This document shows, piece by piece, positions 4,031 through 17,785 of a DNA stretch of 22,965 nt (the stretch's first letter is position 1; each line of letters opens with the position of its first letter). The notes beneath the pieces were generated by a model. It did not search any database. It had not been told where the DNA came from and worked only from the letters and a program-made list of their open reading frames with translations. The DNA lies in the IMG/VR virus record IMGVR_UViG_3300042392_001284, positions 1 through 22,965 of that record, one strand, 5' to 3'. The translations under genes were made by a program, and so were the position numbers. The stretch comes from a virus.

Positions 4031-4495
4031 TCATCTTCCTCCACCTAGAGCATAGTGCAGAATCAAGAGGGCGTCGCAGTTGCGAAGCGTCACGTCTAGG
4101 TGTGGATACAATTCCTGGGCCTTCGCCTTGAGCTTGCGCTTCCAATCGGAATAATCCTTGCACGATGCTTTCCCGCCGAGTCCTAACGGAGCCTGCCACG
4201 CTTTTGGAGCTGCTCTGTGAAGAGCGTATCCGTATGCGTATGCAGCAGCTTCAACCCGACCAAGGTTTCTGTGAAGCACGGCCATCGACGAGCTTTTCGT
4301 CATGGGGGACACAAAGTTCGGAAGCTCCTCGATCCATAACTCTGAGTTGGCCACCTTTAGCTGATTGATCAGCGCGCAGATGTCCGGTAGTGATTCCGGC
4401 ATCTTTAACAGGACGATTCCGTCCGGTGTGTTGACTGCGAATCCGCCGCCGACACCAGGGTCAACGGCAACGATGGGTTTGTTTGATTTACTCAT
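4031..4495 (-). CDS. RuvC-like Holliday junction resolvase
   Basis: Starting from the ATG at 4495, this 154-residue protein has an RNase H-like fold signature: VAVDPGVGGGF (first catalytic Asp), LWIEELP (catalytic Glu) and a C-terminal RNCDALLILHYAL with the last acidic residue. These match the phage RuvC-like nuclease family that cuts branched DNA before packaging or during recombination. The longer frame that opens at 4579 runs into the SSB gene and is rejected. The start is 4 bp after the SSB stop, and the resolvase, SSB and SF2 helicase form a natural recombination and fork-repair module. Confidence 0.85.
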   Translation of the reverse strand: MSKSNKPIVAVDPGVGGGFAVNTPDGIVLLKMPESLPDICALINQLKVANSELWIEELPNFVSPMTKSSSMAVLHRNLGRVEAAAYAYGYALHRAAPKAWQAPLGLGGKASCKDYSDWKRKLKAKAQELYPHLDVTLRNCDALLILHYALGGGR

Positions 4496-4499
4496 TCGC

Positions 4500-4862
4500 T
4501 CAGTAACAAAGGATAGTGACGTTCTCGGCAGCGATTCGAACGGCTGATTTCGTGTCACCACCGTCCGACCACTTCTCAACCTTCACACGGCCTTTGACAC
4601 GCACCAGCGCGCCATTGGCGACTTCCATAATCTTCTCAGCCACTTGCCCCCATGAGGACAGTTCGAACTCATCGAAGTCTTCGTGGAATCGGCCATCCGC
4701 ATCCGTCCAATGGCGAGCGACGGATATAACGCGGCGCACCATAAGCGCACCCGTTTTGGTTTCTGTTTGACGGCTGATACCTCGAAGTTCGCCGATCAGA
4801 TAAACCACGTTCTCTGTGGGCGTGGCTGTTTCGTTTGTTGTCGTTGTAATTGATGCACTCAT
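4500..4862 (-). CDS. ssb: Single-stranded DNA-binding protein (OB fold)
   Basis: This 120-residue protein starts at the ATG at 4862, which overlaps the helicase stop in ATGA. After a Thr-rich leader it has an OB-fold pattern typical of SSB: VVYLIGELRG, RRVISVARHW, FELSSWGQVAEKIMEV and GALVRVKGRVKVEKW, followed by VRIAAENVTIL. The acidic C-terminal tip that bacterial SSB uses to bind partners is absent; it ends in ILCY. That makes recruitment of host SSB-interacting enzymes less likely. Role: protects single strands during replication and annealing. Confidence 0.88.
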   Translation of the reverse strand: MSASITTTTNETATPTENVVYLIGELRGISRQTETKTGALMVRRVISVARHWTDADGRFHEDFDEFELSSWGQVAEKIMEVANGALVRVKGRVKVEKWSDGGDTKSAVRIAAENVTILCY

Positions 4863-6023: not shown

Positions 6024-6209
6024 CTAATGGGTGACTGCCGTCAATGATGCGCTTACTTGCGTCGTATTGCTCATCTTTGCCAGCAGTTCTCTCACCGCTT
6101 TTTCAGCGAGAAATCCGATCTTGATTCCATGCTTTTCGCTAACAGCGCGCAGCTCGGAATGAAGTTCTGAGTCGATTGTGATGACTGTGCTTTTCTTTTT
6201 GGTTTTCAT
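6024..6209 (-). CDS. Ribbon-helix-helix-like small protein (copy 1)
   Basis: The start at 6209 overlaps the upstream stop in ATGA; the frame opening at 6254 is rejected. The 61-residue protein has a short strand (KSTVITIDSE) followed by two helices (LHSELRAVSEKHG and GFLAEKAVRELLAK), the size and order of an RHH/CopG/Arc-type DNA-binding fold. It resembles the product at 8527-8688 along its length, including shared H...L...G-K and A-x-AV-x-E positions. It may act as a small transcriptional regulator, possibly of this early region; the target is unknown. Confidence 0.7.
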   Translation of the reverse strand: MKTKKKSTVITIDSELHSELRAVSEKHGIKIGFLAEKAVRELLAKMSNTTQVSASLTAVTH

Positions 6210-6751
6210 TCGCAGGTGTAGATTTTGTCGGTGGTTCGCAGGCCGGTGGGCCATTGAGGTTCGGTGAATGACTTCTCGATGAAGATGACCTTATCGGTGG
6301 GCTGGATGGTGAGTCGTTCGCCATCGGTTCGGATGAACATGAATTCTTTGGCTTGGTTGGGTTGTCGGCTCCAGCTATCGCCGATGGGAGCGGCGGTGAA
6401 GAGGTAGTCGCCGGTGATGATTTGATCGGCGCATTTGACCTGGCATTCGAGTCCTCGGAGGAAGGTGTACTCGATGGTAGTGAAGTCGGTTCCGTAGCAG
6501 TCCCATCGCTGGGCTTGCTGAGGTGTCCATTCAAGCTCTGGATCGGAGCTGAATGTTATGGCGTGAGGCGGCACCGCCCGGTAAACCGCGCCGCATTCGA
6601 GCATGATGGTGCAGCCCCACATCCGACCTGGGATGGATACTAGGCCGAACCAGACGCAGGGGATGAATGCTGTCCCGGATAATCCGAGGAAGGATGCTTC
6701 GACGAAGCAGTACTGATGGTGAGGCAATTGGCCTGCTTGTGAGTAGATCAT
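6206..6751 (-). CDS. Hypothetical 181-residue phage protein
   Basis: The ATG at 6751 follows GGAG at a 5-base distance and overlaps the upstream stop in ATGA, so the start is well supported. The protein is rich in aromatic residues and cysteines (for example FIPCVWFGLVSIPGRMWGC and LECGAVYRAVPPH) and contains SDPELEWTPQQAQRWDCYG. No catalytic motif or membrane segment stands out. The pattern suggests a compact beta-rich fold, and I suspect it is one of the conserved but uncharacterised phage early proteins. I give no function. Confidence 0.7.
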   Translation of the reverse strand: MIYSQAGQLPHHQYCFVEASFLGLSGTAFIPCVWFGLVSIPGRMWGCTIMLECGAVYRAVPPHAITFSSDPELEWTPQQAQRWDCYGTDFTTIEYTFLRGLECQVKCADQIITGDYLFTAAPIGDSWSRQPNQAKEFMFIRTDGERLTIQPTDKVIFIEKSFTEPQWPTGLRTTDKIYTCE

Positions 6752-6966
6752 GGTTTCTCCGTAAGTGACTTGATGTATCGTTTCCTCTCAGCCGGTTTGG
6801 CGTCGATGATGTACTGCAAAGCTCCGCAAGCATTCACGCTCGCGGTGTGTTCCCAGTCCTCTTTGTTGTCGTAGTACTCATGCCACCGCTCGCTGGGTGC
6901 GACGACAATCTGGCCGGTTCGATTGTGGCGGAACACGAATGCGGCAGGGCCGATGGGTACAATCAT
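6748..6966 (-). CDS. Hypothetical 72-residue protein
   Basis: The ATG at 6966 is chosen over one at 6981 because GGAGG lies 4 bases upstream and the codon overlaps the preceding stop in ATGA. The product begins MIVPIGPAAFVFRHNRTGQ, a beta-hairpin-like start, and ends in a basic helix (AKPAERKRYIKSLTEK). It overlaps the next gene by 4 bp. Family not recognised. Confidence 0.65.
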   Translation of the reverse strand: MIVPIGPAAFVFRHNRTGQIVVAPSERWHEYYDNKEDWEHTASVNACGALQYIIDAKPAERKRYIKSLTEKP

Positions 6967-7166
6967 CTTCCCTCCAACCATTTTTCGAGGTCGTTCAACT
7001 CGTTCACTTTGGCTTCGAGTTCTTTGATGCGGTCGTTGAGACGATTGAGTTCCATCACAATCCCCCGTGGACGTACGTCGCTTAGGGACTTACCTTCTGG
7101 AGTCTTGATGCTGAATCCATTCAGTGGAGGCATTCGTCGCAATACGATGTGGGTGTAGCGTTTCAC
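6963..7166 (-). CDS. Coiled-coil microprotein of the DRIK array
   Basis: The GTG at 7166 is the best start: GGAGGT lies 6 bases before it and the codon overlaps the stop of the membrane microprotein in GTGA. The frame opening at 7223 would run deep into that gene. The 67-residue product has a short basic beta-like head (VKRYTHIVLRR) and a C-terminal coiled coil containing LNRLNDRIKELEAKVNEL, the same DRIK-x-LE core seen in the array members at 7491-8530. Function is unknown. Confidence 0.6.
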   Translation of the reverse strand: MKRYTHIVLRRMPPLNGFSIKTPEGKSLSDVRPRGIVMELNRLNDRIKELEAKVNELNDLEKWLEGR

Positions 7167-7291
7167 CGATTTACCTCCTTCAGTATGAAGTAAGCCGAAC
7201 CAGCAATCACAAGTGCAAGCCACAGTTCTGGATGTCGCTTGTGGAACTCCAGCTCATCTTTAACTAATTCAATAACTTCTTTAAGTTTCAT
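7163..7291 (-). CDS. 42-residue single-pass membrane microprotein within the coiled-coil array
   Basis: The gene begins 2 bp after the upstream stop and ends in a GTGA overlap with the next gene. An amphipathic N-terminal half (MKLKEVIELVKDELEFHKRH) is followed by a hydrophobic segment PELWLALVIAGSAYFIL and a short charged tail KEVNR. The membrane part is short (about 16 residues), so it might lie in the bilayer or associate peripherally. Its AYFIL ending resembles the AYFILFIL of the microprotein at 3417-3536. It also carries the Shine-Dalgarno sequence of the next gene inside its last codons. Confidence 0.65.
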   Translation of the reverse strand: MKLKEVIELVKDELEFHKRHPELWLALVIAGSAYFILKEVNR

Positions 7292-7293
7292 AG

Positions 7294-7494
7294 TCAGAAT
7301 TCAATGAGGTGGTACAACCGTTTGCGAAGTTGGGCGACCTCGGCCCGCTTCTCAAACAGGTCGTGATAACGAGCGATGTTGTATCTGACCGATCCATGCT
7401 CGTCGTGTAATGAGTCGCAGTACTTTTCAAGAAAAGCGATGCGCTCCTCAGTGCGACGGATGCGCCAGTTGCGATACCATTTGAATGGATTCAC
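7294..7494 (-). CDS. Basic helical microprotein of the array
   Basis: This 66-residue product begins at GTG 7494, with GGAGGT 6 bases upstream and a GTGA overlap with the preceding stop. The sequence is helical and basic (FKWYRNWRIRRTEERIAFLEKY, split here for length, then KRAEVAQLRKRLYHLI). It has a heptad pattern in RRTEERIAFLEKY, so it may be a distant relative of the neighbouring coiled-coil proteins. Function is unknown. Confidence 0.65.
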   Translation of the reverse strand: MNPFKWYRNWRIRRTEERIAFLEKYCDSLHDEHGSVRYNIARYHDLFEKRAEVAQLRKRLYHLIEF

Positions 7495-7673
7495 AGCTTC
7501 ACCTCCTTCTCATTCCACAGCAGCAGATCCGCTCGCAATGCGTCGTTCTCGGCTTCCAGTTGCTTGATCCGATCCTCCAGTTTTCGCACCTCAAAGGCGA
7601 TTGCGCGGAGTTCGCGGCGGTCGTTGTAATCGGCAAAAGCCGGCAGGTCCAAGATTCGTTGCTCAACGCTCAC
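7491..7673 (-). CDS. Coiled-coil microprotein of the DRIK array
   Basis: This 60-residue product starts at GTG 7673, with GGAGG upstream and a GTGA overlap. It has an acidic head and a long coiled coil with the heptad core RKLEDRIKQLEAENDALRAD. The last residues, EKEVKL, correspond to the repeated DNA junction that also supplies the Shine-Dalgarno sequence and GTG for the following gene. It is a clear paralogue of 7876-8115 and 8276-8530 in the RIK-x-LE segment. Function is unknown. Confidence 0.7.
   Translation of the reverse strand: MSVEQRILDLPAFADYNDRRELRAIAFEVRKLEDRIKQLEAENDALRADLLLWNEKEVKL
7492..7508 (-). repeat. Junction repeat, copy 1 (stop/Shine-Dalgarno/GTG module)
   Basis: The plus strand reads CACAGCTTCACCTCCTT. 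On the coding strand it encodes the last residues of one gene, carries GGAGG and ends in the GTG start of the next. It differs from copies at 7877 and 8113 at three positions. Confidence 0.7.
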
Positions 7674-7879
7674 AGCTTGGCCTCCTTGGCTTTGCGCCCT
7701 TGGTCTTTTCTCAAAGCATCTCGCGCAGCATCACCTTCTGATCCATGACAATAGCAGTTTGAAACTGTATATTCGTACCAAGTAAGAGCTTCCTTTAGCC
7801 GTTTGATGCGGTCTTTGAGTCGAGTTATCGTTGCGGCAGTCTCAGCGGAATGACCCTGTTGTGGTGGTCGATACTTCAC
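7670..7879 (-). CDS. Coiled-coil microprotein of the DRIK array with a Cys/His insert
   Basis: This 69-residue product starts at GTG 7879 behind GGAGG and overlaps the preceding stop in GTGA. The coiled coil has the family core ITRLKDRIKRLKEALTW. After it comes SNCYCHGSEGD, a Cys-x-Cys-His insertion found in none of the other copies, then a basic tail ending KEAKL. The insert might bind a metal, but three ligands are few. Function is unknown. Confidence 0.7.
   Translation of the reverse strand: MKYRPPQQGHSAETAATITRLKDRIKRLKEALTWYEYTVSNCYCHGSEGDAARDALRKDQGRKAKEAKL
7671..7687 (-). repeat. Junction repeat, copy 2
   Basis: The plus strand reads CACAGCTTGGCCTCCTT, one base different from the copies at 7877 and 8113. 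It carries the GGAGG and the GTG start of the gene ending at 7491. Confidence 0.75.
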
Positions 7880-8115
7880 GGCTTGGCCTCCTTCAACGCT
7901 TGATCGGCCATAGCTGTGCAGTCCTTATTGCCGTAGAGTCGAAGCGCATACACTTCGCTCTCCAACTGTTTGATGTGTTTACACGCTGCTTTTGATGTCT
8001 TGTCCAAAGCCTCCTCCAGCCGCTTGATGCGTTGGTTGAGTTTTCTGTTCTCATTTAGCAGTTCGTCACGATGATCTGCTATCTCATCAATGATGCTTGA
8101 TTTTGGTAGATTCAC
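7876..8115 (-). CDS. Coiled-coil microprotein of the DRIK array, with YGNKxCTAxAD tail
   Basis: This 79-residue product starts at GTG 8115 with GGAGG upstream and a GTGA overlap. Two heptad stretches are visible (LLNENRKLNQRIKRLEEALD, then KHIKQLESEVYALRLY). The C-terminal part, LRLYGNKDCTAMADQALKEAKP, is shared with the protein at 8276-8530 (LRFYGNKGCTAVADKIL), so the two are recent duplicates in the tail while their N-termini differ. Function is unknown. Confidence 0.72.
   Translation of the reverse strand: MNLPKSSIIDEIADHRDELLNENRKLNQRIKRLEEALDKTSKAACKHIKQLESEVYALRLYGNKDCTAMADQALKEAKP
7877..7893 (-). repeat. Junction repeat, copy 3
   Basis: The plus strand reads CACGGCTTGGCCTCCTT, identical to the copy at 8113. 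It supplies GGAGG and GTG for the gene ending at 7670. Confidence 0.8.
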
Positions 8116-8279
8116 GGCTTGGCCTCCTTTTTAATTAGACTGAACAGTTCATCTCTTACGCGAAATTTTACGACCGCCTCAACCAATCCTCCGTCAGACG
8201 ATTCTCTCGCTTGTTCAGATTTTGCGTCGATTGCCGCGTCAATGTATTCCAATAGTTTGGTCAGTAGTTCTTCGTTCAT
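8112..8279 (-). CDS. 55-residue hypothetical protein in the coiled-coil array
   Basis: The gene is supported by an ATGA overlap with the start (8276-8279) and a GTGA overlap at its end. The helical product begins MNEELLTKLLEYIDAAIDAK, has a Ser/Gly-containing centre and ends KKEAKP, the same C-terminal tag found in 7876-8115. It lacks the DRIK core, so it shares only the junction sequence with its neighbours. Function is unknown. Confidence 0.65.
   Translation of the reverse strand: MNEELLTKLLEYIDAAIDAKSEQARESSDGGLVEAVVKFRVRDELFSLIKKEAKP
8113..8129 (-). repeat. Junction repeat, copy 4
   Basis: The plus strand reads CACGGCTTGGCCTCCTT, identical to the copy at 7877. It encodes the shared KEAKP tail upstream and the GGAGG and GTG for the gene ending at 7876. 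Confidence 0.8.
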
Positions 8280-8530
8280 ATCTTTGCATTCCTAGCTAGT
8301 ATTTTATCAGCAACCGCTGTGCATCCCTTGTTTCCATAGAATCGAAGCACTTCAATCTCACGCTCCAACCGCTTGATGCGCTCTTGCAGCCGCAGGTTCT
8401 CTTCATCCAACAATTGCTGCTGACGGATGATTGCATTGGACGCGGTGAGGTCGCGTTCGAGACTCCTGCACAGCATGCCGAGTTCGGCCACGTTGTGCGG
8501 TGTGCTGTCTGATATTGGGGTGTCGCTCAT
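8276..8530 (-). CDS. Coiled-coil microprotein of the DRIK array, with YGNKxCTAxAD tail (copy 2)
   Basis: This 84-residue product starts at ATG 8530 in an ATGA overlap. It begins MSDTPISDSTPHNVAELGML, then has a long coiled coil (LDEENLRLQERIKRLEREIE) and the tail LRFYGNKGCTAVADKIL. Proteins that begin 'DTPxTD' and continue into a helix with LERDLxxxN are common in phages and are generally annotated as hypothetical. The tail duplicates that of 7876-8115. Translation of the array probably depends on entry upstream, since no strong Shine-Dalgarno sequence precedes this ATG. Confidence 0.72.
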   Translation of the reverse strand: MSDTPISDSTPHNVAELGMLCRSLERDLTASNAIIRQQQLLDEENLRLQERIKRLEREIEVLRFYGNKGCTAVADKILARNAKI

Positions 8531-8688
8531 TTCGTTTCCTTTCCTTCCAAGTACTCACTCACCGCCTCATCTGCTACGTATTGCAGTTTGTAGCCTTTGC
8601 GCTTTGCGTATTCTTTGAGTCGCTTGTGCGTGTCGTCTGACACGACAAACATCTTGGCAACGGGACGTTTGGGTTTGGGTTTGTTCAT
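8527..8688 (-). CDS. Ribbon-helix-helix-like small protein (copy 2)
   Basis: The ATG at 8688 lies 1 bp after the thyX stop (TAAAATG), so I reject the longer frame from 8796, which is inside thyX. The 53-residue product starts with a basic arm (MNKPKPKRPVAKMFVVSDD) and then has two helices (THKRLKEYAKRKG and LQYVADEAVSEYLEG). It aligns with the 6024-6209 product without long gaps. It probably binds DNA as a dimer. It ends in ATGA overlap with the first coiled-coil array gene, which it could regulate, but this is inference. Confidence 0.72.
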   Translation of the reverse strand: MNKPKPKRPVAKMFVVSDDTHKRLKEYAKRKGYKLQYVADEAVSEYLEGKETK

Positions 8689-8689
8689 T

Positions 8690-9334
8690 TTATTCGCTCG
8701 TAATTGCCTCATGGATGACCTGGAAATGCTCGGCAAAAATGCCGTCTCGAATGGCCAGCGCGATCTGGCGATGCTCCTTCTGCGTACCCTTCGCACACCG
8801 CTGCTCGAAGTAATGAATCCATGAGCGAATGTTTCCAGTCATGTACAGCGTCGTCTGCGTGCAGAGCGGAAGAACCATGCGAGCAGTCTCGCGGCTCACA
8901 CCCTCCTGGAGGAGCTGGCGATAGGTCTTGAACGCAAGATCGACAGACTTGGCCACCGCGTCGTACGCCCAGTCTTGATCGAACGAATCACCACTTCCCT
9001 GGCGGTTGACTCGATCCTGAGTGCGAAGTTCGACCGGCTCGGGAACATCGCTTGGCGCATATCTTTGGCTCCACTCCTGGAAGCAGAACGATTTGTGTCT
9101 GATGATCTGAGCGGAGATGGCGCGGCTGGTCTGAATCTCGACCGTCATACTGGCCTGCTCGAAAATGCTCCAGTGGCCGTTCTTGATGCAGTAGGCCAGT
9201 AGTTTTGGAGCGGTGAGCAGACTCATCTGGTTCGACGGATTGCTGACACGGGCGGCGAACGTGATGAAGTCGGATGCGGTCATGTTACCGTCGCCGACAA
9301 GTGGTTTTGTGATTGCTGCGATTTTGACTTTCAT
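8690..9334 (-). CDS. thyX: Flavin-dependent thymidylate synthase ThyX
   Basis: This 214-residue protein converts dUMP to dTMP using methylene-tetrahydrofolate, FAD and NADPH, and so supplies the phage with thymidylate. The ThyX signature RHR-x7-S appears as R79-H80-K81, seven residues, S89, followed by QRY (90-92). Other family segments are HWSIFEQASMTVEI and RMVLPLCTQTTLYMTGN with RSWIHYFEQR near the C-terminus. Length is normal for the family. The middle Arg of the signature is Lys here. It starts at ATG 9334 without a visible Shine-Dalgarno. The 70-bp gap upstream holds no gene. Confidence 0.95.
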   Translation of the reverse strand: MKVKIAAITKPLVGDGNMTASDFITFAARVSNPSNQMSLLTAPKLLAYCIKNGHWSIFEQASMTVEIQTSRAISAQIIRHKSFCFQEWSQRYAPSDVPEPVELRTQDRVNRQGSGDSFDQDWAYDAVAKSVDLAFKTYRQLLQEGVSRETARMVLPLCTQTTLYMTGNIRSWIHYFEQRCAKGTQKEHRQIALAIRDGIFAEHFQVIHEAITSE

Positions 9335-9404: not shown

Positions 9405-9839
9405 TTAGAACGGCTTTTCTTCGTCAGACTCAGGAGCAGTCGGCGCAGGAGCTGCCTTCATGTTCTTGATGCGATACGCCCTCTTCTTCTCGCCATTCGA
9501 TTCGTACTCTTCAGCACGAACGGTGATGGCCAGCTCAAGACCAATCATTGAGCGCAGGAAGTTGGCATAGCTGCCCTTGACGCCGAGGAAGTCCACCTCG
9601 GTTCCATCTGGCACATTGTGGTTGGTGGCGGCGACAAGCTGATTCACGCGGAACCAGACATTCTCCTGGTTGATAAAACGGTCGGCGATGCTCGATCCGT
9701 CCTCGGTTGCGAATGTCACCTTGCAGACCTCGCGGCCCTTGGCGTCGAGCGTTTCCTCGACCTTCATCACGGTGACGGTGTACTCGCCTTCAGCGTTGAT
9801 GTAGCTGCCTCCGGCGTCTTTGCGATTAACTTTGAACAT
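9405..9839 (-). CDS. DUF669-like phage protein (recombination-associated)
   Basis: This 144-residue protein begins MFKVNRKDAGGSYINAEGEY and continues with alternating beta strands (TVTVMKVEETLDAKGREVCK, then VTFATEDGSSIADRFI). Proteins of this shape near phage exonuclease and annealing genes are usually assigned to DUF669, which is thought to be an OB-like single-strand-binding protein. The Pro/Ala-rich tail ending ESDEEKPF is acidic, with a terminal Phe, like the partner-binding tip of SSB proteins. It may therefore be the SSB of the exonuclease/annealing system, whereas the other SSB here lacks that tip. Confidence 0.7.
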   Translation of the reverse strand: MFKVNRKDAGGSYINAEGEYTVTVMKVEETLDAKGREVCKVTFATEDGSSIADRFINQENVWFRVNQLVAATNHNVPDGTEVDFLGVKGSYANFLRSMIGLELAITVRAEEYESNGEKKRAYRIKNMKAAPAPTAPESDEEKPF

Positions 9840-9865: not shown

Positions 9866-10660
9866 CTAACTCTCGGATTTATTCAGCACCCATTTCGGGC
9901 ATGAAAGTGTTTGTGTCGCTGTCGGATAGGCTGGCCAACTGTCCAGTGCGCGGCACTCGTGGAGCGTCGAGATGGCTTTACGCCGCAGATTCTCACCGGC
10001 CTGAAGCCACTCGATGTCGAGCCGATAGATGCCAACGGCGTACGGAGCTTTGCGTTCCACGGCGACGAAGATGAAGTTCTCCGCTCCGGTCATGGCCAGA
10101 TAGTGCGCGGCTTGAATGTGGTAGCCGAACGAGGTGATTGTGCGGCTGAACGCTTCAGGCGATGCGTCGTCCGTTGTTTTCACATCGACCAGGGTGTGGT
10201 CCTCGACCCAAAGATCAGGGCGAGCTTTCAGAGGAATGCCGGTTTCCTCGTCCTCGGCAAACACACTGGCTTCGATCTTGTGGTTAAGATGAATGATGTC
10301 CCAGAACGGATGGCGACGGACACTGTTCGCGACGCCCTGGACATCGATGTCCTCGGCATGAGTCAGATGGATGCGTGACTTGTGCTGCTCCTTCCACGCT
10401 TTGCCTTCCTTGGTCCGACCGTCGATGTCCGGTGGGACAACGGCGACAACCTGAGAATAGAGTTGCGGTTCGAGAACAGCGGTATGAATCGCCGTACCCA
10501 TCTGCATAGCTTTCGTTGGCTCCTGATGCTCGTCCAGCGCGGCTTTGTAGTGCGCCGGTGACTTGAGGATCTTGGTCATCATCGACTTTGAGAGAGCGTC
10601 AACGGCGTGATACTTCTCGGCTGGCATGTCGAAGTTGATGTGGCGGTTTAGAATACTCAT
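9866..10660 (-). CDS. RecE-like PD-(D/E)XK exonuclease (DUF3799-type)
   Basis: This 264-residue protein is probably the 5'-3' exonuclease of a two-component recombination system. It begins with MPAEKYHAVDALSKSMMTKI and SPAHYKAAL, which mark this family, then GTAIHTAVLEP (His59). The active site is E130, D149 (KARPDLWVED), then D159-V-K161 (LVDVKTT), followed by the Q183...Y187 helix (GYHIQAAHYLAM). The spacing fits the lambda-exo/RecE/RecB nuclease fold. Its start overlaps the RecT-like stop in ATGA, which is the classical pairing of exonuclease and annealing protein. Confidence 0.9.
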   Translation of the reverse strand: MSILNRHINFDMPAEKYHAVDALSKSMMTKILKSPAHYKAALDEHQEPTKAMQMGTAIHTAVLEPQLYSQVVAVVPPDIDGRTKEGKAWKEQHKSRIHLTHAEDIDVQGVANSVRRHPFWDIIHLNHKIEASVFAEDEETGIPLKARPDLWVEDHTLVDVKTTDDASPEAFSRTITSFGYHIQAAHYLAMTGAENFIFVAVERKAPYAVGIYRLDIEWLQAGENLRRKAISTLHECRALDSWPAYPTATQTLSCPKWVLNKSES

Positions 10661-11490
10661 TCGAGTGTAGGAGCTGAAAATGCCTTAGCCTTGGAGATGA
10701 AGCTGTCAGGATCGGATACGATCATGTTGGCCACCTTGGTCGAGACATCGCGGAAGTTCTGACCTTCCTTGATTAGGTTCTTCGAGAGCAGGAACGCATT
10801 GGCGATGTCGCTGTGCGGTTCGAGGATTTGCTCCAGCTTGTCTGTCAGCGAGAAGGTCGATTCCGGCGTCACATTGACCGTCTGGCGCGTCGGAGTGGGT
10901 TGAGCGGGTGTTGATGGGGTGTTGAAGTCGGCGGCTTCCTCGGTGGCATAAACACCGGCAACAACCTCGGGAGCCAGCATGCGGATAGCCTTCGAGATGC
11001 AGCGAGCGCGGAGCATAGCCGACGGATCTTTCTGCCAGCCAGATCCTGGCTTTGCGGGTAATAGGCCAGCTTGCTTCGCATCTTCTGCGGTGAATCCGAT
11101 TTCGCATTCGTTGCCGTCGTACTTCCAGATGCCAATCGCGGCAGTCGAATCGAACTGCTTCCAGATGACCTTACCGCCGCGAGTCCGGTAACCGGCAAGC
11201 ATCGCGTCTGACCGCATCGTCAACGATCCGTTGACCAGATGAAACTCTCGCTTGAAATCGAACGGAGTCTTGCGTGTGGCCAGACACTCAAGGGCAATCA
11301 TGTTCCCTTGCTCATCCTTCTGACAATTAAAGACTCCGCTCCTGGCAATCCAAGATCCGAGTTCCTTCACCGCTTCAAGCGATGTCCCGATTCGAGAGTA
11401 GAACTCTCCGCTGTCAGTGCTGGTCGTTGCCAGCGATTGCGTTTGAGACGGCACTGCTACCGTCAGGTTGGTTTGTAGGTTGTTGCTCAT
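10657..11490 (-). CDS. RecT-like single-strand annealing protein
   Basis: This 277-residue protein is the likely partner of the RecE-like exonuclease and anneals single strands during recombination. The recognisable part is a central segment with KPGSGWQKDPSAMLRARCIS followed by KAIRMLAPEVVAGVYATEE, a pattern I associate with RecT/Bet-like annealing proteins. The C-terminal part, after a Thr/Pro-rich linker, is helical and acidic. It starts at ATG 11490 within the end of the upstream HTH gene (77-bp overlap in a different frame). No Shine-Dalgarno is clear. Homology to RecT is from motif memory and should be tested. Confidence 0.78.
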   Translation of the reverse strand: MSNNLQTNLTVAVPSQTQSLATTSTDSGEFYSRIGTSLEAVKELGSWIARSGVFNCQKDEQGNMIALECLATRKTPFDFKREFHLVNGSLTMRSDAMLAGYRTRGGKVIWKQFDSTAAIGIWKYDGNECEIGFTAEDAKQAGLLPAKPGSGWQKDPSAMLRARCISKAIRMLAPEVVAGVYATEEAADFNTPSTPAQPTPTRQTVNVTPESTFSLTDKLEQILEPHSDIANAFLLSKNLIKEGQNFRDVSTKVANMIVSDPDSFISKAKAFSAPTLE

Positions 11491-11743
11491 TTGTATTCTC
11501 TATCTGCTGTTTTGGTTTCTTGGCTGCGTATGGATTCACAGCTCCGGTCATTGCTCGACTCTCAAGAATCGCCGCGATGTCGGCTTCCGTGAAAAGGATT
11601 CGTCGGCCAATTCTCCTGTGCTGGATGCCGTCGTTGCGAACGATTCGCCTTAGCGTCTCGGTGCAGATTTGGAGCATCGCTGCTGTGGCTTTGGCGGTGT
11701 AGACTTTCAAGTTTGAAAAGGGGGATGGCAACTGGGTGATCAA
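11414..11743 (-). CDS. Helix-turn-helix DNA-binding protein (excisionase/MerR-like HTH)
   Basis: The N-terminal part (VYTAKATAAMLQICTETLRR, then IVRNDGIQHRRIGRRILFTEADIAAIL) is a typical excisionase-family winged HTH: helix, turn, helix and a basic wing. The rest is a Gln/Asn/Pro-rich tail ending in NDQH. The track-length start is a TTG at 11743, and a TTG at 11710 is also possible. The last 77 bp overlap the RecT-like start in another frame. It is flanked by the inverted repeats at 11726-11805, so it may control its own transcription and that of the recombination genes. Confidence 0.7.
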   Translation of the reverse strand: MITQLPSPFSNLKVYTAKATAAMLQICTETLRRIVRNDGIQHRRIGRRILFTEADIAAILESRAMTGAVNPYAAKKPKQQIENTNEQQPTNQPDGSSAVSNAIAGNDQH

Positions 11744-17116: not shown

Positions 17117-17785
17117 TCAACCGGCCGTTGTGATTCGTTGCACCCGCTTTGCACCCGTTCCATGTGGCTTGAAACCGACAATGAATCCACGGTTGCCCTT
17201 GGCGCATAGGCGGCACTTGTCGCATGACAGGCTGTCAACGCGCTGCGCAGGACACACGACAACGCGGTTGCCCTCCGGTGTCGTGAATCGGTCCGCGCTG
17301 TCTTGTGGGACAACGGCCGCAACCGGCAAACCTAGCTTGGCAAGGGTGTCAGCATGCGACACCGAATTCGCGGACAGGTTGACAACGAAACCGCGCTCAT
17401 TGGCGGACCGTATCGCGGACAGGTTATCTGGCGTCAACGGTTTGTGGGTATAGGTGAAACCGCGCTTGCCAGTGTTTGCTTCCGTCAATTGCGAAAGAGC
17501 GGTTGCGTCAATTGAGTCACCGACACCGGGCAAGTCTCCAGCTTGGTTGTGACGCCACAACTGCCCGGCCGGGAAAGAGCGGACCTTAGACAGGAAGGAA
17601 GACCAGTCAAAGCCGCGCTGTCCGCTTGTTACCTTTGACCAGTGAAGCGCAAGCGGACCGGAGTCCGCATAGCAACCGTCTTTCTTGAATGGACATGCAT
17701 CACTGCAAGTGACGGCCGACGATGTGGAAACCGGAATAGGGCCGGTTTTCGCGTTTGAAGATTTGAGGGTGAGATGGACGTTCAT
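17117..17785 (-). CDS. Conserved phage protein with two cysteine clusters, possibly metal or Fe-S binding
   Basis: This 222-residue protein begins MNVHLTLKSSNAKTGPIPVS, a start I recognise from a conserved phage family without a known function. C27, C31 and C38 (TCSDACPFKKDGCYA) form a first cluster, and DSLSCDKCRLCAKGNRGFIV a second near the C-terminus. Between them lie SANERGFVVNLSANSVSHAD and LPVAAVVPQDSADRF, which look like alternating strands and helices. The layout resembles phage Gp37/Gp68-like proteins (possibly radical-SAM-like barrels), but this is only resemblance. It starts at ATG 17785 behind a TTGGATTGAG leader. Confidence 0.7.
   Translation of the reverse strand: MNVHLTLKSSNAKTGPIPVSTSSAVTCSDACPFKKDGCYADSGPLALHWSKVTSGQRGFDWSSFLSKVRSFPAGQLWRHNQAGDLPGVGDSIDATALSQLTEANTGKRGFTYTHKPLTPDNLSAIRSANERGFVVNLSANSVSHADTLAKLGLPVAAVVPQDSADRFTTPEGNRVVVCPAQRVDSLSCDKCRLCAKGNRGFIVGFKPHGTGAKRVQRITTAG

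Follow-up and report, generated by a model that had tools for sequence, protein, structure and literature searches.

The DNA analysed here (the window) is the complete IMG/VR record IMGVR_UViG_3300042392_001284, 22,965 bases of a virus-classed freshwater phage, which carries on its minus strand, from 8530 down to 6963, a chain of eight small genes (g1 to g8), five of them encoding the core L-x-x-RIK-x-L (Table 1). Comparison of this array with its relatives indicates that heads and tails of such genes are very probably shuffled in frame at two repeated DNA joints. The original prediction, made from the sequence alone, had described six coupled small genes; the minus-strand chain was borne out, the number of genes being eight. 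Neighbouring genes overlap by 4 nucleotides (nt) in six of the seven pairs, and g6 and g7 are separated by two bases. As predicted, the RIK core is present in five genes (g1, g3, g4, g5 and g8), the tail LRxYGNKxCTAxAD is common to g1 and g3, and a membrane microprotein of 42 amino acids (aa) with one hydrophobic stretch (7163-7291; best 19-residue mean hydropathy, 1.39) lies within the array. Among the loci compared, one frame resembles this microprotein by eye (EEWEFHKRQPEM...). The start of g8 is most likely the GTG at 7166, behind a Shine-Dalgarno sequence, rather than that of an 86-aa reading.

Two repeated joints in the array

The first joint, CGCATCAAGCGGYTGGAG, is the point in the coding core where head meets tail. 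With up to three mismatches allowed, its pattern matched the window five times against 0.12 expected, and none of 100 shuffles reached five; the matches were the cores of g1, g3, g4 and g5 together with a second core-like repeat in g3, the g8 core being too diverged. The second joint is an 18-nt boundary, AAGGAGGYNAAGCNGTGA, which closes one gene, serves as ribosome-binding site for its successor and overlaps the successor's GTG start. At the same threshold it also gave five matches (0.50 expected; 0 of 100 shuffles reached five). A search for repeats that used no pattern returned as its leading families D1 (19 nt, at five gene ends) and D2 (18 nt, at five sites in g1, g3 twice, g4 and g5).

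Translated in the upstream gene, the junction reads KEAKP, KEAKL or KEVKL followed by a stop, the g7/g8 copy having diverged, whereas its RNA forms a perfect Shine-Dalgarno sequence, and the GTG start after it overlaps the upstream stop. Because the junction encodes these shared protein ends while being the Shine-Dalgarno sequence and start, they are a by-product of the translation signal. That the shared KEAKP/KEVKL ends are the next gene's ribosome-binding site had been overlooked in the original prediction. The core repeat in turn encodes RIKRLE, so that what the genes share at the core is a repeat in the DNA and not only a heptad.

Table 1. Genes of the array, copies of the two joints, and other genes of the window
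Feature	Position	Strand	Remarks
g1	8276..8530	-	84 aa; head MSDTPISDSTPHNVAELG..., core LQERIKRLE, tail EVLRFYGNKGCTAVAD; first slot of array
g2	8112..8279	-	55 aa; without core; ends KKEAKP (junction)
g3	7876..8115	-	79 aa; head MNLPKSSIIDEIADHRDELLNENRK, core LNQRIKRLE, tail ...LRLYGNKDCTAMADQAL-KEAKP
g4	7670..7879	-	69 aa; core LKDRIKRLK; ends KEAKL
g5	7491..7673	-	60 aa; head SVEQRILDL...ELRAIAFEVRK, core LEDRIKQLE, tail ENDALRADLLLW, ends KEVKL
g6	7294..7494	-	66 aa; without core
g7	7163..7291	-	42 aa; without core; one hydrophobic stretch (membrane microprotein)
g8	6963..7166	-	67 aa; head KRYTHIVLRRMPPLNGFSIKTPEG..., core LNDRIKELE, tail KVNELNDLEKWLEGR; last slot of array
Core joint g1	8363..8380	-	1 mismatch; D2
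Core joint g3	8014..8031	-	0 mismatches; D2
Second core-like repeat in g3 (HIKQLE), diverged	7960..7977	-	3 mismatches; D2
Core joint g4	7793..7810	-	2 mismatches; D2
Core joint g5	7554..7571	-	3 mismatches; D2
Core joint g8, CGCATCAAAGAACTCGAA	7014..7031	-	overlaps repeat D3, whose other copy overlaps g4 core
Junction g2/g3, AAGGAGGCCAAGCCGTGA	8112..8129	-	D1
Junction g3/g4, AAGGAGGCCAAGCCGTGA	7876..7893	-	D1
Junction g4/g5, AAGGAGGCCAAGCTGTGA	7670..7687	-	D1
Junction g5/g6, AAGGAGGTGAAGCTGTGA	7491..7508	-	D1
Junction g7/g8, AAGGAGGTAAATCGGTGA	7163..7180	-	1 mismatch; D1
RecE-like exonuclease VIII	9866..10660	-	phrog_412, E 2.1e-79; candidate recombination partner
RecT-like single-strand annealing protein	10657..11490	-	phrog_561, E 2.4e-22
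Holliday-junction-resolvase-like (RuvC-like) protein	4031..4579	-	phrog_1770, E 1e-13
Single-strand DNA-binding protein	9405..9839	-	phrog_378, E 1.7e-9
Thymidylate synthase gene	8690-9334		one side of array; profile scan
Small ribbon-helix-helix-like gene	8527-8688		after thymidylate synthase gene; 8527-8670 scored Arc-like, phrog_3180, E 1.4e-6
Small conserved gene	6748-6966		bounds array at its g8 end

Heads and tails are reassorted among relatives

Matches between array proteins and their IMG/VR relatives frequently end inside the protein. Among the best 80 of 179 relatives of g1, many match only to residue 56-70 of 84, and the best 80 of 92 relatives of g8 cover residues 1-66, 1-50, or only 33-66 and similar. 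Matches to g3 stop at residue 34-45 or start at 32-48, the exceptions being one near-identical locus and one short match. In six proteins compared, the g3 head carries four kinds of tail (three of the six have variants of one tail), and by an eye count the YGNK tail sits on seven heads in the same comparison. The layout was looked for in related phage genomes and found to recur in many. Six near relatives (loci L003 and L005-L009) keep g1, the adjacent g2 and the g3 head and differ in the later genes, the gene at 6748-6966 closing the array in four of them.

Loci were fetched by an exact core or, for newly added ones, an exact junction, and locus counts are lower bounds, as are the matches listed; the family is therefore larger than counted. 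When the 60 nt on each side of the core were clustered at 75% identity, 456 distinct cores in 277 sequences (2.27 Mb) fell into 302 combinations of 133 left with 148 right flank clusters, including 56 full two-by-two sets. At least two right partners were found for 54 left clusters (maximum 30) and at least two left partners for 55 right clusters (maximum 22). Pairs with the left flank at least 90% and the right below 50% identical numbered 726 and the reverse 540 (1,266 one-sided), and pairs at least 90% identical on both sides 100, in counts that take identical flank-core-flank sequences once, which lowers the both-sided pairs and hides exact duplicates. The core pattern also caught unrelated open reading frames (ORFs; by eye, helix-turn-helix clusters L11 and R10, and L095, L113 and L181), a slight inflation of the cluster counts. 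Enlarged with the loci of g8 relatives, the set comprised 538 cores, 135 by 155 clusters and 332 combinations, with 1,025, 795 and 204 pairs in the same three classes; in this set the cluster of the g5 tail was joined to 24 different left clusters. Conclusions were unchanged in a recount without duplicate removal, which used 238 non-redundant of 353 loci (those sharing more than half their 25-mers with a longer one were dropped) and gave, for 537 cores in 212 loci, 948 and 766 (1,714) one-sided against 271 both-sided between-locus pairs.

As a control, in-frame 18-mers common to ORFs of at least 200 aa were taken from the same loci, and in a sample of 40,000 out of 151,761 pairs both flanks were alike in 88.0%, while 1.2% were discordant. 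In contrast, only 1.9% of the 22,410 pairs with the same core 18-mer were alike on both sides and 6.9% were discordant, the rest being mostly unlike on both; in loci not fetched by the core (4,037 pairs) the values were 6.0% and 18.2%. Most ORFs contained a single core (521 of 577), 39 had two and 17 had three. In L007 and L008 three cores are stacked in one 138-aa gene, as though the joint had taken up additional helix modules.

The modules were also compared with the RuvC-like proteins of the same phages, using only high-scoring segment pairs (HSPs) that covered at least 60% of the longest. Tails at least 90% identical were common to 152 of 2,445 locus pairs with RuvC-like proteins less than 60% identical; whole combinations were common to 29 of these pairs and to 16 of 440 with RuvC-like proteins at least 90% identical. 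After deduplication tails were shared in 77 of 1,851 and 25 of 328 pairs, respectively, and whole combinations in 8 and 10. Since tails are common to phages with diverged RuvC-like proteins, modules travel largely, not wholly, independently of the genome. Their order along the array is well kept: in loci with at least three cores, many of them fetched with g1 itself, the g1 head cluster came first in 28 of 28 occurrences and the g8 tail cluster last (mean relative position 0.99, n=36), and order was retained in all 14 tail pairs co-occurring at least three times and in 19 of 23 head pairs.

Conservation of the joints as DNA

At the core, the choice of codons is more conserved than the encoded protein alone would require. 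The fourth codon, an arginine codon, was CGG in 93% (background 20%), the first, also arginine, was CGC in 73% (background 28%), and lysine was encoded by AAG in 89% (background 66%) of 48 cores, in which each left or right cluster was used once and only loci not fetched by the core were admitted (186 of 456 occurrences). Among 14,738 core pairs with unrelated flanks, 5.9% shared an exact run of at least 20 nt and 2.6% one of at least 23 nt, compared with 0.01% for runs of at least 15 nt in the control. At the junction, runs of at least 23 nt were present in 3.3% of 56,850 pairs.

The junction was conserved in 98 independent ends of genes, lined up at their stop codons, drawn from loci not fetched by it and including a few from unrelated ORFs. 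AAGGAGG was conserved at 0.80-0.89 per base, the 4-nt stop/start overlap occurred in 89 of the 98, and tail, AAGGAGG and overlap were found together in 53. Up to eight copies with at most one mismatch were counted in one of eight phage records searched. Small ORFs with KEAKP-like ends lacked the core pattern in 252 of 573 cases (some have close variants of it) and included membrane microproteins and apparent whole-gene cassettes. In array loci such as L097 and L117, upstream-extended frames begin ...SQGGQAV, which is the junction in another frame, and automatic start calls would overextend array genes with such frames.

Predicted structure, selection and function

The structure model of g3 is a single helix over residues 5-76 (mean predicted local distance difference test score 86.4, predicted template modelling score 0.52), and that of g8 a low-confidence hairpin followed by a confident helix at 32-65; in both, the predicted helix runs through the core. 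As judged from variation in their sequences, modules are under purifying selection, the ratio of non-synonymous to synonymous polymorphism (pN/pS) being 0.05-0.49 in the 27 clusters that yielded a value of 30 examined, a set in which L11 and R10 are unrelated helix-turn-helix ORFs.

The array had been described as a set of short coiled-coil proteins without a named relative, and this holds. All Pfam matches of the eight proteins fell below curated cut-offs (best E value 2.7e-4), their best PHROGs match had E 0.0027, and seven of them searched in PADLOC gave E 0.0037 at best. Weak matches, mostly to coiled-coil families, were likewise all that was obtained with a few of the relatives and with whole-gene cassettes taken from other loci. 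Searches of 50,697 phage records by tblastn with g1 and g3 returned only E values of 0.2 or worse and no convincing relative in an isolate phage, and one typical core protein had no match at E 0.1 against phages and plasmids. Small phage proteins are often described as acting on the host (PMC11323111), and we tentatively suggest that the array products may be helical adaptors that bind host targets through their heads and tails, a role that draws no support from named families.

Proposed mechanism and alternatives

As we picture it, the array would be a combinatorial set of early phage microproteins, built by in-frame recombination between phages at the two joints. At the first, some 18-28 nt of core (RIKRLE with less conserved surroundings) inside a long helix, a crossover would swap head for tail and keep both frame and helix. 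At the second, whole genes could be exchanged or inserted, and translation would stay coupled because the junction comprises the last residues, the Shine-Dalgarno sequence and the start overlap. The exchange may be carried out by a RecE/RecT-type annealing system of the phage, or by that of the host. Red-beta is reported to need 23-27 bp of exact pairing and RecA 31-34 (PMC3945230); with runs of at least 23 nt in 2.6% of core pairs and 3.3% of junction pairs, two phages with several cores and junctions each would therefore often have a usable joint. Early in infection the products would act on host targets as helical and probably dimeric adaptors, and shuffling of heads and tails would renew their binding specificity. 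Taken whole, we regard it as likely that homology-driven, in-frame shuffling diversifies short helical, probably host-directed early proteins. We are more hesitant over whether the phages have a system dedicated to diversifying microproteins, although this may be so. In such a system selection would maintain the joints as recombination sites, and each phage would draw a non-redundant hand of head, helix and tail, in ordered first, middle and last slots, from a pool common to all; the loci compared comprise 135 left-flank and 155 right-flank clusters. The common helix core could also let the products of one array pair with each other, multiplying the assemblies.

Several observations weigh against this picture. 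The support is comparative throughout, and the exchange step itself is inferred. Most unrelated joint pairs share only short exact runs (medians 8 and 5 nt), and ends of HSPs are only mildly enriched near the joints, with 0.18 at the core against 0.15 inside HSPs, and 0.12 (left) and 0.21 (right) at the junction against 0.11 inside, the ends piling up on the expected sides. With so mild an enrichment, the case rests on the flank table and its 18-mer control. Relatives of RecE or RecT were found in 57 of 192 array loci and RuvC-like proteins in 92, these loci being partial stretches, and the link to RecE/RecT is therefore circumstantial. Related phages share tails somewhat more often (48 of 440 pairs with RuvC-like proteins at least 90% identical), and defence or takeover families gave no convincing match to the array proteins or the relatives scanned. 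Finally, arrays with this core were found on uncultivated contigs, and 250 of the 302 combinations were each confined to a single sample.

Among the alternatives, neutral shuffling survives best, in which recombination-prone joints would reassort proteins of little function. It would fit the rarity of shared whole combinations even in related phages (the 16 of 440 pairs above, from partial loci with near-identical contigs dropped). However, pN/pS was below 0.5 in every cluster with a value, frames and coupling are retained and the slots are ordered, and we consider it unlikely. A dedicated site-specific recombinase, invertase or diversity-generating retroelement that moves the modules is a good deal less probable. 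The joints are sharp, the combinations many, and an excisionase-like helix-turn-helix protein is encoded at 11414-11743, but a scan of 20 window proteins from outside the array (a subset of the ORFs) named no reverse transcriptase or integrase, and the changes are of whole modules rather than points. Nor do inverted repeats mark the joints, a single weak pair (81%) overlapping one junction, and RNA folds were ordinary at five of six joint stretches (z -0.8 to 1.0 at four junctions; one core stretch, z -2.3).

According to the original prediction the family grew by tandem duplication and divergence inside the phage, a course that now seems highly improbable. In its favour, g1 and g3 have a tail module in common (pairwise blastp without composition correction, E 9e-12), g5 matches g8 in a 33-residue stretch around the core (E 1.6e-6), and in L102 one tail is found on two heads at 98% DNA identity. 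In most window pairs, however, the core alone is shared (g1-g5, E 6e-4; no other pair better than 0.002, the alignments lying mainly at the core or at other heptads), so that the expected similarity beyond heptads failed for most of them, the layout nevertheless recurring in many other phages. Furthermore, when locus labels were permuted 200 times over the 212 non-redundant loci with a core, within-locus pairs at least 75% alike (3 left, 1 right) were rarer than chance (17.8 and 19.3) and below all permutations. At the 90% threshold 0 and 1 were counted where permutation gave 7.0 and 5.5, which places the observed values at the limit of the permuted ones, and the deduplicated test at 75% gave 3 and 2 against 12.1 and 11.5 expected. 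Slot ordering may contribute to this depletion.

Chimeras formed at short repeats during metagenome assembly would suit the many combinations confined to one sample, noted above, yet 52 of the 302 were found in at least two samples and 23 in at least three, and four two-by-two sets survive when every combination is required to recur. The arrays that follow g2 also recur in two samples each (L003/L009, L005/L006 and L007/L008). Recurrence across samples speaks against chimeras for the recurring combinations and cultured Arthrobacter phages have the same kind of head-tail swap, which leaves this explanation a very small chance. Least probable of all is convergence of unrelated helical proteins on one heptad without recombination, for which it speaks that RIKxLE is plausible as a generic coiled-coil heptad and that weak matches to many coiled-coil families were obtained, but which is opposed by near-identical DNA flanks on one side only, the strong codon bias of the joint and the runs of at least 20 nt in 5.9% of unrelated pairs.

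Phage genomes are rich in tiny early genes that match nothing. In-frame shuffling at the two joints would explain one large group of them as recombinations of a two-joint kit, not separate families; the joints allow microproteins to be split into modules before searches for function, and predict the sites of exchange.

Genome context and hints of a host

Replication and recombination genes are among the minus-strand genes around the array, and profile scans of the window also named a second single-strand DNA-binding-like protein, a helicase and an endonuclease VII-like protein. The downstream neighbour of the array (6206-6751) matches a PHROG annotated 'ferredoxin' in the host-takeover class (E 3.9e-16). 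The excisionase-like protein (phrog_66, phrog_1840) lies directly upstream of the RecT-like gene, and 17117-17785 strongly matches Pfam DUF7227 (E 9.8e-92), a family of unknown function. In a scan of genomes for hosts, one relative (L277) was found on a 4 kb contig of a Verrucomicrobiota bin, together with other phage-like genes, which provides a weak hint of the host. A junction search of 387 Verrucomicrobiota genomes gave two matches, the L277 genome and L289; the latter lies at the end of an unrelated 494-aa gene and was taken as chance.

Comparison with known systems

It is already known that phages swap genes at boundary sequences and that domains are shuffled in their proteins. A tandem array that combines a coding joint with a ribosome-binding-site joint was not found described in the open-access literature searched. 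In the lambdoid boundary-sequence model (Susskind and Botstein 1978; Clark et al. 2001, for HK620), as presented in PMC3233612, short conserved sequences at gene borders allow homologous gene swaps. The array resembles it in its short conserved border (98 independent ends; up to 8 copies per record), and different genes lie between the same borders in L003 and L005-L009 and in the window. In contrast to that model as presented, the border here is also a ribosome-binding site and a coding C-terminus, and a second, in-frame joint lies inside the genes. The promoter-stem-loop (PeSL) cassettes of T4-type phages (Arbiol et al. 2010; Comeau et al. 2014; PMC4503421) are described as repeated elements that mediate exchange in intensely shuffled regions, and a repeated element within intense gene shuffling is found here as well. 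However, a sigma-70-consensus promoter scan gave one promoter-like match against 1.9 expected and a terminator-like scan three against 3.2, with no stem-loop excess, and the element here is translational and coding.

Unrelated phage proteins share fragments according to Smug et al. 2023 (PMC10684548), who expect more such cases among unknown-function and accessory proteins, stress receptor-binding proteins, endolysins and polymerases, and left recent mosaicism in tape-measure proteins unconfirmed, partly owing to coiled coils. Array proteins that are otherwise unrelated likewise share fragments, recent by one-sided DNA identity of at least 90%; compared with the mosaicism set out there, they are microproteins, in a tandem array with one repeated DNA joint. 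For Rad52-like phage recombinases, short exact homologies are said to suffice for mosaics (PMC3945230), and the window encodes a RecT-like protein; whereas the exchange described there uses homologies between related sequences, the array joint is found in frame at several places in the same genome.

The closest analogue was reached through L233, a contig of another phage kind fetched by the junction pattern. This GC-rich contig has (8015-10316) a chain of small minus-strand genes that end EVQP or EAQP, with overlapping starts and helices RIAELEA or RITELEA, possibly a parallel version with another joint. In cultured Arthrobacter and Gordonia phages (L278-L287), one zinc-ribbon-like tail is carried on several heads, the swapped proteins being Kukla gp75, Shoya gp50, BrayBeast gp49, TripleJ gp73, Faja gp49, Bauer gp58, YungMoney gp7, Guacamole gp76 and Getalong gp64. 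The helical-looking head of Kukla gp75 and Shoya gp50 has other tails in BrayBeast gp49, in TripleJ gp73 and Faja gp49, and in Bauer gp58 (four tail kinds). Where tails are unlike, identity in successive 30-nt steps is 0.87-1.0, then 0.53-0.83, and drops to 0.2-0.4 immediately behind the helix ARKQQAALDAVR. In Shoya an ERF-family annealing protein is encoded three genes downstream of the swapped gene. These phages share with the array the swapping of heads and tails and mostly 4-nt gene overlaps, and compared as single joints theirs differs in sequence (ARKQQAALDAVR), the kind of swap being the same. With their similar swap, the cultured Arthrobacter phages provide a case in which one could test how host-directed proteins may be renewed.

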